Shown one piece after another: positions 2,283 to 53,626 of a stretch of DNA of 64,000 bases. This DNA comes from Clostridiales bacterium (lineage in GTDB: Bacteria; Bacillota; Clostridia; Lachnospirales; Lachnospiraceae): assembly GCA_020859985.1 (NCBI GenBank), contig JAJBVD010000006.1, positions 1 through 64,000 of the forward strand. Reading direction: 5' to 3'. Position 1 is the stretch's first letter; each line of letters begins with the position of its first letter. A model generated the notes under the pieces. The model was not told the DNA's origin, searched no databases, and saw nothing but the letters and a program-made list of their open reading frames with translations. The translations under genes were made by a program, and so were the position numbers.

Positions 2283-3701
2283 ATGAATTGTTTTTGGAAA
2301 AAAAGGATTATAAGAACCCTTGCTGCAGGTATTCCGGCGGCCTTTCTACTGTCAGGATATTCAGTTTGCCTGCCATTCACAGGTTCGGAAGGAATGGGAT
2401 CAGCCGGGGACCGTACGATAAGCGGAATGTCAGGCAGGACTATGCGGGTTATGGCAGAGGAGGAGCTGACAGATATTTCGGTTGTCTCGGCGGAAGCGGA
2501 GACGGAGAGCATCGGAGCGGATGATTCTTTGCCCTCATACTGGTATGCAGGTGATGCAGGGAAGAAGCCTACAGTGAAAAATCAGGGAGCATATGGAACC
2601 TGCTGGGCGATCACGGCGACTTCCGCTTTGGAGTCGGCATTGCTTCCGGAGCGGCAGATCGTGTTTTCTGCTGACCACCTGACGCTTCAGAATTCTTTTA
2701 CTGCGGATGTCAATGATGGCGGCGATTACTTGATGCTGATGGCGTATCTTTGCGGCTGGCAGGGGCCGGTGACCGAAGAGGAAGACCCTTATGGAGATGA
2801 ATATTCCCCGGAAGGACTTGCCTCGGCGGTGCACGTGCAGGAGGTCCGCGTTTTTTTGGATTCTTCTATTGAAAAAATCAAGGAAACTGTGTATACTTAT
2901 GGCTCTGTACAGACATCTCTATATATGGATCATGATACAGCTACTGACGGAGCAGGATATTACAATGCATCGACTTCTTCCTATTATTATACAGAAGAAA
3001 TGACGCAGAATCATGATGTGCTGATTTTAGGATGGGATGATTCCTGGGGCGAGGAGCAGTTTGCAGTTTCACCGGATCAGAGTGGAGCGTTTATCTGCCT
3101 GAATACATGGGGAAGCGATTTTGGTGAGGACGGGATTTTCTATGTGTCGTATTCCGATCCGAATATCGGTGCTGTTGCGGTAGCTTATACGCAGATTGAA
3201 GATACTGACAATTACGATCACCTTTATCAGTATGATCCGTGCGGCTGGCAGGGACAGCAGGGATATGAATCCGAGGATTGCTATTTTTCAAATGTCTACA
3301 CTGCGGATGGGGACGAAACGCTTGCGGCGGTTGGATTTTACGCGACAGGAGAGGATGTCTCCTACGATATTTATCTGGTGCATGATTTTGACGGAACAGA
3401 CTCTTTTGCTCAGATGGAATACCTGCAAAGCGGGAGCCTGAAGGATATAGGCTATTATACCGTGGATCTGGACGCAGGGCAGGAGCTTACAGCCGGAGAA
3501 CGGTTTGCAGTGGTGATCAGAATCCATGTTCCCGGAGAGAGCAATCCGGTTGCGGTGGAATACAAATCGGATGAATATACACAGAATGTGACTATTGAGG
3601 GAAAAGAAAGCTATCTGAGCAGATATGGGAGCTCCTGGGAAAATACACAGGAAAAGTTTGCGACCAATGTCTGCCTGAAGGTTTATACAAAGGACCGGTA
3701 G
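2283..3701 (+). CDS. Secreted papain-family (C1) cysteine protease
   Basis: This 472-residue exported protein has a basic N terminus and a hydrophobic segment (about 7-30) forming a signal peptide or anchor. A C1A papain-like domain runs from about 85 to 300. Visible active-site residues are Gln101 in KNQGAYGTCW (oxyanion hole), Cys107 as nucleophile, His244 in NHDVLILGW and Asn274 in LNTWGSDFG. The remaining 170 residues look like the lectin-like beta domain that follows C1 peptidases in clostridial surface proteases. It probably degrades extracellular proteins or peptides. A copy of the H3 hairpin lies just upstream of the start codon. Confidence 0.9.
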   Translation: MNCFWKKRIIRTLAAGIPAAFLLSGYSVCLPFTGSEGMGSAGDRTISGMSGRTMRVMAEEELTDISVVSAEAETESIGADDSLPSYWYAGDAGKKPTVKNQGAYGTCWAITATSALESALLPERQIVFSADHLTLQNSFTADVNDGGDYLMLMAYLCGWQGPVTEEEDPYGDEYSPEGLASAVHVQEVRVFLDSSIEKIKETVYTYGSVQTSLYMDHDTATDGAGYYNASTSSYYYTEEMTQNHDVLILGWDDSWGEEQFAVSPDQSGAFICLNTWGSDFGEDGIFYVSYSDPNIGAVAVAYTQIEDTDNYDHLYQYDPCGWQGQQGYESEDCYFSNVYTADGDETLAAVGFYATGEDVSYDIYLVHDFDGTDSFAQMEYLQSGSLKDIGYYTVDLDAGQELTAGERFAVVIRIHVPGESNPVAVEYKSDEYTQNVTIEGKESYLSRYGSSWENTQEKFATNVCLKVYTKDR

Positions 3702-7444: not shown

Positions 7445-7473
7445 TTGACAATGCCGCAAACCTGATGTATAGT
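7445..7473 (+). promoter_or_regulatory. Sigma-A promoter of rplJ-rplL
   Basis: TTGACA (7445-7450), a 17-nt spacer and TATAGT (7468-7473), immediately upstream of the L10 leader. Confidence 0.88.
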
Positions 7474-7483
7474 AGCAAAGATG

Positions 7484-7570
7484 ACTGCCGAAGACAGCAG
7501 GTGCCGTATGGCATAATTTCGTTAACTGAAGATCGGATTCCGATATCGGTGACGTGGCCTGCCGAGGAGT
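7484..7570 (+). ncRNA. Ribosomal protein L10 leader
   Basis: The leader of rplJ contains the two conserved strands of the L10 leader. ACTGCCGAAGACAGCAGGTG (7484-7503) can pair around a kink-turn-like core with the partner strand containing GCCTGCCGAGGAGTG (7557-7571). In other bacteria the L10(L12)4 complex binds this RNA and represses its own operon. The 7377-7736 gap is otherwise accounted for by the terminator, promoter, attenuator and a further hairpin listed separately. Confidence 0.88.
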
Positions 7571-7595
7571 GAGATTCTTATAGAAGAATTGTGAT

Positions 7596-7634
7596 GCTCT
7601 TTTGTCGGATGTGGTGACAGAGGAGTATTTTTTA
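7596..7634 (+). terminator. Attenuator-type terminator in the rplJ leader
   Basis: GCTCTTTTGTC (7596-7606) pairs fully with GACAGAGGAGT (7616-7626), including three G-T pairs, around a 9-nt loop; a T6 run follows at 7628-7633. Its position directly after the L10 leader suggests transcription attenuation coupled to L10 binding. Confidence 0.7.
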
Positions 7635-7637
7635 TCG

Positions 7638-7662
7638 TATAGGAAATTCTGTTCTTCCTATA
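7638..7662 (+). other. Short hairpin TATAGGAA/TTCCTATA in rplJ leader
   Basis: A perfect 8-bp stem with a 9-nt loop lies between the attenuator and the rplJ start. A similar hairpin with AGGAA/TTCCT core lies before the HD-domain gene at 22600-22637. Confidence 0.5.
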
Positions 7663-23245: not shown

Positions 23246-23271
23246 GTAACTGTGAAGGTATTGAACAGTTA
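23246..23271 (+). repeat. H3 hairpin repeat, copy B
   Basis: GTAACTGT, GAAGGTATTGA, then ACAGTTA: a near-perfect copy with one loop change. It lies 68 nt before the phosphoesterase start, in the same orientation. Confidence 0.85.
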
Positions 23272-23338
23272 GAATCTGCTTTAGTTAGCACTTTATATTA
23301 TTCTATACATGTAAATGTGGAGAGTGAGAGGAGAAGAG

Positions 23339-36955: not shown

Positions 36956-36982
36956 GTAACTGTGAGGGGATAGAACAGTTAC
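36956..36982 (+). repeat. H3 hairpin repeat, copy C
   Basis: Intact GTAACTGT and ACAGTTAC arms around a diverged loop (GAGGGGATAGA). It lies 22 nt before the glycogen debranching enzyme start, same orientation. Confidence 0.85.
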
Positions 36983-42244: not shown

Positions 42245-42252
42245 AATCGCAG

Positions 42253-42285
42253 CAACCGCTCGGGACAGTACTTCGCATTTGCTGC
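42253..42285 (+). repeat. Truncated H1 module, tandem left copy
   Basis: This stretch aligns without gaps to the left 33 nt of the H1 module (AACC, ACAG, CTTCGCA, TGCTGC shared) and abuts the full copy at 42286. It is a partial tandem duplication. Confidence 0.6.
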
Positions 42286-42345
42286 TAACCATTCAGAACA
42301 GGTCTTCGCACCTGCTGCGAAGACCGTATGAAAACCTGCAGCATG
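42286..42345 (+). repeat. H1 module, full copy before spoIIIAB
   Basis: TAACC, ATTCAG, then a perfect 10-bp stem GGTCTTCGCA/TGCGAAGACC with loop CCTGC, followed by GTATGAAAA and GCAGCATG. It aligns gap-free with the copies at 45072-45130 and 53524-53583, with compensatory stem changes. Confidence 0.85.
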
Positions 42346-42348
42346 TGG

Positions 42349-42390
42349 GGGAAAGCCCCATCGCGAAGCGATTTTAAATGGGCTTTTCCC
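42349..42390 (+). repeat. H2 hairpin of the composite repeat
   Basis: GGGAAAGCCCCAT pairs with ATGGGCTTTTCCC (two single-base bulges) around a loop holding TCGCGAAGCGA. It lies between H1 and H3. The copy upstream of yifB retains only the right arm, GGGCTTTTCCC. Confidence 0.75.
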
Positions 42391-42392
42391 TC

Positions 42393-42419
42393 GTAACTGT
42401 GAAGGTACTGAACAGTTAC
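42393..42419 (+). repeat. H3 hairpin repeat, copy D
   Basis: GTAACTGT, loop GAAGGTACTGA and ACAGTTAC: the consensus copy. It lies 33 nt before spoIIIAB and is the last hairpin of the three-hairpin composite. Confidence 0.9.
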
Positions 42420-45036: not shown

Positions 45037-45071
45037 TCCTGAATCCGGAGGCAACAATGCTGCCGCATTGA

Positions 45072-45130
45072 TAACGATTCAGAGTAAGCCGCCGCATTTG
45101 CTGCGAAGATTGTATGAAAACGTATAGCAT
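45072..45130 (+). repeat. H1 module, diverged copy before spoIIIAF
   Basis: TAACG, ATTCAG, GCCGCA, loop TTTGC, TGCGAAG, GTATGAAAA and TAGCATA align gap-free with the other copies; the stem is degraded on one arm. No H2 or H3 follows here. Confidence 0.75.
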
Positions 45131-45147
45131 AATAGGAAAGTGTGTAT

Positions 45148-45717
45148 ATGACCGGATGGATCAAATCACTTGCTGCTGCAGCCTGTCTGCTGACCATAAT
45201 TCTGCATCTGGTACCGGAAAACCGTTTTGCAAAATATGTTCGGTTTTACGCGGGACTGCTGTTTTTTCTTCTGGCAGTGCAGCCGGTTCTGGAGCTTATG
45301 GGAAGCGCGGATGAATGGGATAAGCTGCTGCAGCTGGAGTTTTTGAAGGAAGAATATTATGATCTGGAAAGCGCGGCGGAGGGTCTGGATGACCTGAAAA
45401 ATGAACAGATACAAAATGCATACCAAAAGGAACTGGAGAGGCAGGCGGCCGGAATTGTATCCGCCTATGGACTGACGCCTGTTTCGGTTGAGATTATATT
45501 CGGTGAGGATGGATATTCCGTGGAACATGTTCTGGTACTCGTGGAAGCTTTGACCACGGATCAAAGCGGGGATGCGGTTTTGAAAACAGCGGATAACAGC
45601 GGCACTACAGCTGTCACATCGGATGATGAGCAAACAATCTCAGCGGCTGCTGAGGAGCTGGCAGAGCTGTATCTGATACCGAAACCGGCTATTGAGATTG
45701 TCAGGCAAGGCGAATAA
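45148..45717 (+). CDS. spoIIIAF: Stage III sporulation protein AF
   Basis: This 189-residue protein has two N-terminal transmembrane helices (about 5-22 and 32-50) and a soluble C-terminal ring-building-like domain (about 90-189) of the type found in SpoIIIAF-AH. I took the ATG at 45148 preceded by AGGAAAG; the GTG at 45142 is possible and adds two residues. It follows spoIIIAE after a 110-nt gap that contains an H1 repeat. Confidence 0.9.
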   Translation: MTGWIKSLAAAACLLTIILHLVPENRFAKYVRFYAGLLFFLLAVQPVLELMGSADEWDKLLQLEFLKEEYYDLESAAEGLDDLKNEQIQNAYQKELERQAAGIVSAYGLTPVSVEIIFGEDGYSVEHVLVLVEALTTDQSGDAVLKTADNSGTTAVTSDDEQTISAAAEELAELYLIPKPAIEIVRQGE

Positions 45718-45781: not shown

Positions 45782-45808
45782 GTAGCTGTGAAGGTACTGA
45801 ACAGTTAC
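45782..45808 (+). repeat. H3 hairpin repeat, copy E
   Basis: GTAGCTGT, GAAGGTACTGA and ACAGTTAC; the A-to-G change in the left arm keeps a G-T pair. It lies 23 nt before spoIIIAG. Confidence 0.88.
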
Positions 45809-53452: not shown

Positions 53453-53523
53453 ACAGGAACCTAATAAATGGTATCAAAAGAATTATATATCAGATACATA
53501 ATATAGATGGAGAATGCAGACAG

Positions 53524-53583
53524 TAACAATTCAGGTCAGTACCTCGCACTTGTTGCGAGGTACGTATGAAAATATACAGCATG
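53524..53583 (+). repeat. H1 module, copy before yifB
   Basis: TAACA, ATTCAG, perfect stem GTACCTCGCA/TGCGAGGTAC with loop CTTGT, then GTATGAAAA and ACAGCATG. Three stem pairs differ from the spoIIIAB copy in a compensatory way. Confidence 0.85.
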
Positions 53584-53599
53584 CGAGGGCTTTTCCCTT

Positions 53600-53626
53600 G
53601 TCACTGTGAAGGTACTGAACAGTTAC
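53600..53626 (+). repeat. H3 hairpin repeat, copy F
   Basis: GTCACTGT, GAAGGTACTGA and ACAGTTAC, with one stem mismatch. It lies 58 nt before yifB, and follows the H1 module and an H2 remnant. Confidence 0.88.

Follow-up and report, generated by a model that had tools for sequence, protein, structure and literature searches.

A dispersed miniature transposon with covarying hairpins in Lachnospiraceae, with one copy inside a spoIIIA operon

The three hairpins that lie between spoIIIAA and spoIIIAB in this genome are one copy of a non-autonomous transposon (MITE) that is scattered through the genome; it is a structured form of an already known type of element. Taking the reading as a whole, we consider it highly probable that the element is a ~134-bp MITE inserted in trans, likely by an IS66 transposase of the ISBst12 group, that its three-hairpin interior covaries, and that the spoIIIA copy is a passenger. 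In the mechanism that we propose, a transposase supplied in trans would insert the non-coding ~134-bp element and duplicate an 8-bp AT-rich target, which often starts with G and then A.

The element, its copies and its target sites

Within the window (the whole 64,000-nucleotide stretch of DNA analysed), a direct reading of the sequence finds H1, a conserved strand, H2 and H3 in succession between spoIIIAA and spoIIIAB, just as the initial annotation had described. A covariance model built from the copies, a check proposed there, recovers this copy at 146.5 bits together with further copies, and sets its limits at 42285-42419, 1 base beyond the 42286-42419 first given. H1 has a 10-bp stem (GGTCTTCGCA/TGCGAAGACC) and a loop of 5 nt; it is followed by the conserved strand CGTATGAAAAC...AGCATG. 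H3 pairs GTAACTGT with ACAGTTAC around an 11-nt loop, and its outer arm serves as the element's right terminal inverted repeat; H3 also occurs alone elsewhere. The features of the element in the window are as follows, with their basis in brackets.

42285-42419, + strand: full-length element copy in the spoIIIAA/spoIIIAB gap (covariance model R1, 146.5 bits; BLAST copies; flanks)
42285-42296, + strand: left terminal inverted repeat, CTAACCATTCAG, consensus GTAACTATTCAG (sequence, aligned copies)
42301-42325, + strand: hairpin H1 (sequence, RNAalifold, covariation)
42326-42346, + strand: conserved single strand, GTATGAAAAC... (aligned copies)
42347-42390, + strand: hairpin H2, inner stem ATCGC/GCGAT (sequence, RNAalifold, covariation)
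42393-42419, + strand: right hairpin H3, a 27-bp palindrome (pattern count, flank tests, placed elements)
42252-42284, + strand: incomplete left end from another copy, directly adjacent to the full-length copy (by eye against other copies)
53523-53626, + strand: second copy, upstream of yifB, with H2 truncated (sequence, covariance model, flanks)
45071-45190, + strand: decayed copy at the spoIIIAE/AF junction (covariance model, 37.9 bits)
45782-45808, + strand: right hairpin alone in the spoIIIAF/spoIIIAG gap (placed elements, flanks)
23246-23272, + strand: right hairpin alone, worn, flanks identical at 4/8 (pattern, flanks)
36956-36982, + strand: right hairpin alone, worn, flanks identical at 5/8 (pattern, flanks)

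The three H3-only copies, the decayed copy and the partial left end are additions to what was first reported. In the decayed copy the left end, H1 and the conserved strand are recognisable by eye to ~45135, and the model match extends into spoIIIAF. The yifB copy carries H1, a shortened H2 and H3 in the same order, and its H1 differs from that of the spoIIIA copy by two-sided changes in three pairs (G-C/T-A, T-A/A-T, T-A/C-G); both statements had been made from the window alone and both hold. Profiles support the identities of spoIIIAA, AB, AE, AF, AG and YifB, with Pfam matches above curated cut-offs for spoIIIAA, AB, AE and AF, no Pfam match for AG, and NCBIfam matches below curated cut-offs for spoIIIAB, AE, AF and AG. 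The window also holds a ribosomal protein L10 leader (RF00557) at 7470-7640 (+), which scores 65.7 bits.

The element is abundant. Its own genome has at least 46 matches to a 181-bp query (40 of 251 first-look candidates scored), and the 27-bp right hairpin GTAACTGTGAAGGTACTGAACAGTTAC occurs there 169 times with up to 3 mismatches (74 forward, 95 reverse), against 0 matches in the same genome for a reversed control pattern. The right hairpin is present in 21 of 47 genomes of the genus, at up to 234 per genome. Named genomes with the element, among the matches listed, include Oliverpabstia, Blautia, Murimonas, Catenibacillus, CE91-St56 and other Lachnospiraceae assemblies. Copies are dispersed, mostly intergenic and without an internal transposase; 10 of 197 element places fall inside an ORF called by our script. 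The plasmids gave no match to the element and the viral contigs gave 0, and among phage records four unannotated faecal contigs match. A literature search that included the end sequences found no paper on this element.

Copies start with GTAAC(T/A)RTTCAG and finish with the inverse, the aligned copies reading GTAACTATTCAG / GTAACTGTTCAG at their ends. A comparison of flanks reveals a target duplication that peaks at 8 bp and at no other length, the outcome that the proposed check for duplications associates with a mobile repeat. Composite elements have a flank identity of 0.836, compared with 0.358 for shuffled partners, and 51 of 71 match at 7 or 8 of the 8 positions. In the 'solo' class of this comparison, many rows of which are composites with another left arm, identity is 0.523 against 0.279 for shuffled partners, with at least 7/8 in 31 of 102. 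A second script placed 124 elements, selected for flanks matching at 7 or 8 of 8: 31 are exactly 27 bp long and a few are 26, 28, 29 or 41 bp (the 41-bp row possibly unrelated), with the remainder at 45-96, 132-143 and 151-272 bp (the 272-bp row being two tandem copies). The target in the placed elements is AT-rich, with G first (0.52) and then A (0.67).

Target duplications are worn or missing in the window copies. The flanks of the full-length spoIIIA copy (ATTTGCTG / GGTTGAAA) are identical at only 3/8, and the partial left end at 42252-42284 occupies the place expected for its left duplication. The flanks of the yifB copy (TGCAGACA / AGCTGACA) agree at 6/8 and those of the 45782-45808 solo (AAGCATAG / AAGCATGG) at 7/8.

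At the spoIIIAA/AB junction of 26 other loci, neither the left nor the right end of the element was found. Of the 26 loci, 20 also match spoIIIAB, and 12 come from genomes in which the right hairpin is present at other places, 13 to 234 times. A conserved position upstream of spoIIIAB, as expected of a cis-regulatory leader, is thus not observed (absent from 26/26), and among the loci compared the spoIIIA copy is known from this genome alone. Probably this copy is a passenger that the operon tolerates and that is transcribed together with it. The initial annotation had left the choice between a structured regulatory RNA, an mRNA-processing signal and a mobile repeat; the last is upheld by the ends, the 8-bp duplications and the copies, and the first two find no support in the position, which is not conserved. 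The inverted ends, the 8-bp duplications, the 169 near-copies of the right hairpin, the absence from 26 loci and an IS with matching ends elsewhere together establish the mobile repeat.

At the same junction a relative (L275) has a different hairpin repeat, GGGCTTATCCCGCACGAAGTGTGGGATGCCACCCGGCGAGGG, twice in tandem, and a stretch resembling it lies inside 174-bp copies (L027, L028).

Covarying hairpins and strand orientation

Covariation, first claimed from two H1 stems, is borne out on many more copies. RNAalifold on 50 copies yields 33 pairs, 17 with change on both sides. In 96 matches to the model, 93 of them distinct, pairing holds in 98.3% of stem cells and 20 of 34 pairs show two-sided change, at levels that 0 of 500 shuffles reach on any of five covariation measures, although the shuffles take no account of how the copies are related and the alignment was itself fitted to the structure; slid controls are only 31-43% paired. 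Every helix covaries. The right hairpin exists as compensated variants (GTAACTGT/ACAGTTAC, GTAACAGTTCAG/CTGAACTGTTAC and GTAACGATTCAG/CTGAATCGTTAC), and the order H1, strand, H2, palindrome is constant across several genera despite differing stem sequences.

Rfam holds no family for the window copy up to E=1, in keeping with the earlier remark that no named element is known with this layout, and at curated cut-offs no family falls on the element in 7 loci, where the one match is an unrelated GA-cis RNA (RF02987; L201 6024-6106, - strand, 47.6 bits) in an 8-kb locus shared with an element copy. A named family, or random placement without covariation, had been put forward as what would speak against the original proposal; we find instead no Rfam match, strong covariation and a sense bias of 72:29.

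Alignment A2 comprises 49 of 61 oriented or orientable elements plus the window copy, leaving out ten of another H1 class, one short row and one tandem row. One H1 class within it (e.g. L133, L227; GGTCGAAGCA/TGCTGAGACC) retains a tandem G-A mismatch, and many of the H2 tips in A2 read GCGAAGC or GCGCAGC, motifs that form very stable DNA hairpins.

We propose that the hairpins would matter when the + strand is single-stranded and folds on itself, be it while the element transposes or, once it lies in a transcribed gap, as RNA. The covariation could instead be a by-product at the DNA level, since template switching can rewrite one arm of a quasi-palindrome from the other, with no need for any function of an RNA or a single strand. 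We regard this as possible though doubtful. It would accommodate the 98.3% of stem cells that pair, and also the greater number of broken pairs in copies whose flanks match at less than 7/8 (14/734, compared with 17/2243 in the rest; p=0.011), since upkeep then seems weaker in older copies. It would not predict the same layout in several genera with different stem sequences, nor, being a strand-symmetric process, an excess of G-U over A-C. On the + strand we count 38 G-U and 18 A-C mismatches (p=0.01, union of two alignments), which favours structure in a single strand; the two parts taken separately give 24:12 (p=0.065) and 14:6 (p=0.115), neither significant alone, and the alignments, of which A3 contributed the 88 best of 96 rows (89 of 96 in another analysis), are fitted to the structure and may lean to G-U. 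The broken pairs in copies with worn duplications also suggest that the hairpins are of more consequence during transposition than once the element is in place.

The same G-U excess, together with covariation in every helix, would suit a structured RNA that acts in cis on the host, as a leader or processing signal, and is retained for its regulatory effect. Orientation adds to this: between co-directional genes, copies lie 72 times in sense and 29 times in antisense (p=2e-5; 25:5 in the element's own genome and 46:21 in named loci). This count uses script-picked ORFs of at least 110 aa rather than annotation, and covers the 158 of 197 places that could be classed (two neighbours, no ORF across), the others being set aside; a solo of Blautia parvula that lies between divergent genes is counted twice (L196, L257), and the full form of the window copy is excluded, its row having been scored as a solo inside a spurious ORF. 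We nevertheless judge such a regulatory role improbable. Copies also lie between divergent (37) and convergent (20) genes, the position at spoIIIA is not conserved in the 26 other loci, and the element has 8-bp target duplications and terminal inverted repeats. Further, in 54 elements, from stretches partly picked for divergent or convergent sites, orientation also agrees with the direction of most nearby genes (37:16) and with GC skew (38:16), so that replication direction could cause the sense bias.

As structured MITEs, such elements can mislead covariation searches for regulatory RNAs. In Lachnospiraceae they place structured sequence in many gaps between genes, with three in the one sporulation operon here.

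A candidate transposase of the ISBst12 group

The mover of the element is likely an enzyme of the ISBst12 group, as judged from shared end sequences. CE91-St56 has a 1.9-kb IS with an IS66-type transposase (L497, 1118 to 3003) whose ends are GCAACAGTTCAGAC / GTAACAGTTCAGAC; the script paired 1118 with 3117, and the inner end at 3003 was read by eye. The flank CTAATTGGA stands on both sides, and the 507-aa ORF matches PF03050 (E 8.8e-18). Six of nine short elements in CE91-St56 begin with GTAACAGTTCAG, and four of these with GTAACAGTTCAGAC, the same sequence as the end of the IS; it is this identity that makes the ISBst12-group mover likely. An autonomous partner with the same ends is thus present in CE91-St56, in a genome other than that of the window, and its ends have the variant form GTAACAGTTCAG in place of GTAACTATTCAG. 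Directly adjoining the IS is a 105-bp element whose ends are similar, with the target TAATTGGA on either side, so that IS and short element stand side by side at L497 1109-3125 with three copies of one target sequence. Of all the data on the partner, those from CE91-St56 are the strongest.

A second IS, of 2267 bp, is found in a genome of the same genus (G008). It encodes a 520-aa IS66-like transposase (PF03050, E 1.9e-10), to which the L497 transposase is a match at 24% identity, and has ends GTTACTATTCAC, which agree with the MITE end at 10/12, and flanks ACTATTTT that agree at 8/8. In the excerpted text of PMC12898284, ISDge4 is a single-ORF member of the ISBst12 group with ends GTGACTACTCAGCA / GTAACTGCTCAGCA and an 8-bp repeat; two composites in CE91-St56 begin with GTAACTGTTCAGCA, identical to ISDge4 at 13/14. 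Ends, 8-bp repeat and single-ORF IS66 transposase all correspond to the group, a label that we take from this one paper, seen in part, and from the one-ORF layout. Such an enzyme (IS66 family, single ORF) would have acted on the copies in the window's own genome.

A search of that genome with the G008 protein found no ISBst12-like gene, and its one IS66 fragment spans profile positions 218-283 of 284; its copies are therefore orphans or dependent on visiting elements. Matches to the G008 protein occur in 4 of 20 genomes searched (G008, G016, G013 and CE91-St56), most of the 20 having been picked for holding elements. Both ends are resolved in two IS of ISBst12-like kind, and the hairpins of the MITE are not seen at the ends of either; for the L497 IS this was judged by eye, and that IS does not account for the element's interior.

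IS66 at large was considered as the parent and set aside. Across the genus, presence of an IS66 gene does not go together with presence of the element (G010, for example, has 161 matches and no IS66), and neither the end motif, in 30 family-level loci and the own-genome fragment, nor an ISDge4-like motif, in family-level and genus loci, occurs in a transposon-like place; most of these loci reach 1500 bases either side of the match, and few have both ends resolved. Readable IS66 ends in the genus are of other kinds (GTAAGCG and similar). Ten further IS66 loci gave no convincing ends, the one pair with 7/8 flanks having unrelated ends. A paired-end search of the loci for an autonomous copy found none, its 57 pairs lacking matching flanks (by eye only), and left ends without a near partner had no transposase visible by eye. 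Matches to the end pattern in Blautia parvula are short elements and chance (19, compared with 14 for the reversed control). Distant transposases appear in 58 plasmid records, all below 60% identity.

IS66-family transposition is called insufficiently characterised in the excerpted text of PMC12898284. A MITE with covarying hairpins, whose right end also occurs alone, offers a small, testable substrate for it.

Solo right hairpins and related repeats

In several genera the right hairpin is found by itself, flanked by 8-bp duplications, as a unit of 27 bp, 29 bp (Blautia parvula) or 30 bp (CE91-St56). We lean towards these solos being remnants, produced by deletion between the left-end GTAAC and the right hairpin's inner GTAAC, in the manner of a solo LTR. 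The geometry fits exactly, the palindrome being left between intact duplications, and some solos in CE91-St56 and Blautia parvula share their right-hairpin variant with a composite of the same genome. In the own genome, perfect duplications surround 3 of 25 solos compared with 15 of 33 composites (p=0.009; full copies L001 and L013, misread by the script as solos, are left out), so solos look older. Against a deletion origin, solos with perfect duplications occur in several genomes, and among the loci compared no site is full in one genome and solo in another. One own-genome solo seems absent from the related site of another genome, which is too diverged to count.

A further possibility, which we consider unlikely, is that the right hairpin of 27-30 bp moves by itself, as two end repeats linked by a short loop that insert with an 8-bp duplication. 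So short a unit would leave no room for the usual paired-end complex on duplex DNA, and the transposase would therefore need a hairpin that is extruded or single-stranded; the same single-strand transposition pathway would then include the covarying hairpins of the larger element and its preference for the + strand. To our knowledge, such a hairpin would be the smallest DNA transposon.

Short palindromes, mostly between genes and in many copies, also recall REP/BIME-type repeats, whose mover is a RAYT (Y1) transposase. REP elements are not known to duplicate their target on moving, and the 8-bp duplication, the clearest feature of the present element, contradicts a REP/BIME origin and renders it extremely improbable. 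The BOX repeat of pneumococcus is set apart by description, since its host group and end sequences differ. In the excerpts of PMC3049150 and PMC10969869, BOX is likewise composite and modular, with predicted stem-loops, variable inner modules and bunching with other repeats. ERIC, a 127-bp enterobacterial repeat likened here by description, is similar in size but has different hosts, and part of PMC3049150 reports an orientation-dependent effect on transcripts.

The closest likeness in kind is to bacterial MITEs such as QMITE2 of Coxiella and MITECca01 of Cardinium, which in the excerpts of PMC10969869 and PMC9769881 are likewise short and non-coding, fold stably, carry terminal inverted repeats and direct repeats (of 7-9 bp in QMITE2) and have AT-rich intergenic targets. 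Unlike these, the present element has interior pairs that covary across genera, a right end that is a complete palindrome of two end repeats and occurs also alone, and, as we infer, an ISBst12-group mover. With the ISBst12 group itself, as ISDge4 is described in part of PMC12898284, it shares near-identical ends (GTAACTGCTCAGCA, compared with GTAACTGTTCAGCA in the CE91-St56 composites) and the 8-bp repeat; unlike the group, with its single-ORF transposase, it has no ORF.

A sister family is marked by ends GTAACNRTTCAGAACAGC and nested hairpins, its copies often being 176 bp long. It has pattern matches in 26 of 47 genus genomes, several of them single-match, and 157 in G018; some of its copies at L231, L233, L390-L404 and L427-L437 have 8-bp duplications. 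A palindromic module, GGCGCTGAACGTCCAGTGGACGTTCGCTTAGCGCCGACCGAAGCGG, lies inside hairpin loops of the present element's loci at L201 132-317, L186 2437-2623, L219 1804-1991 and L149 6184-6419, and similar modules are visible by eye in hairpin loops of the GTAACNRTTCAGAACAGC family at L427 and L431. In both MITE families it is as if hairpins insert into hairpins.
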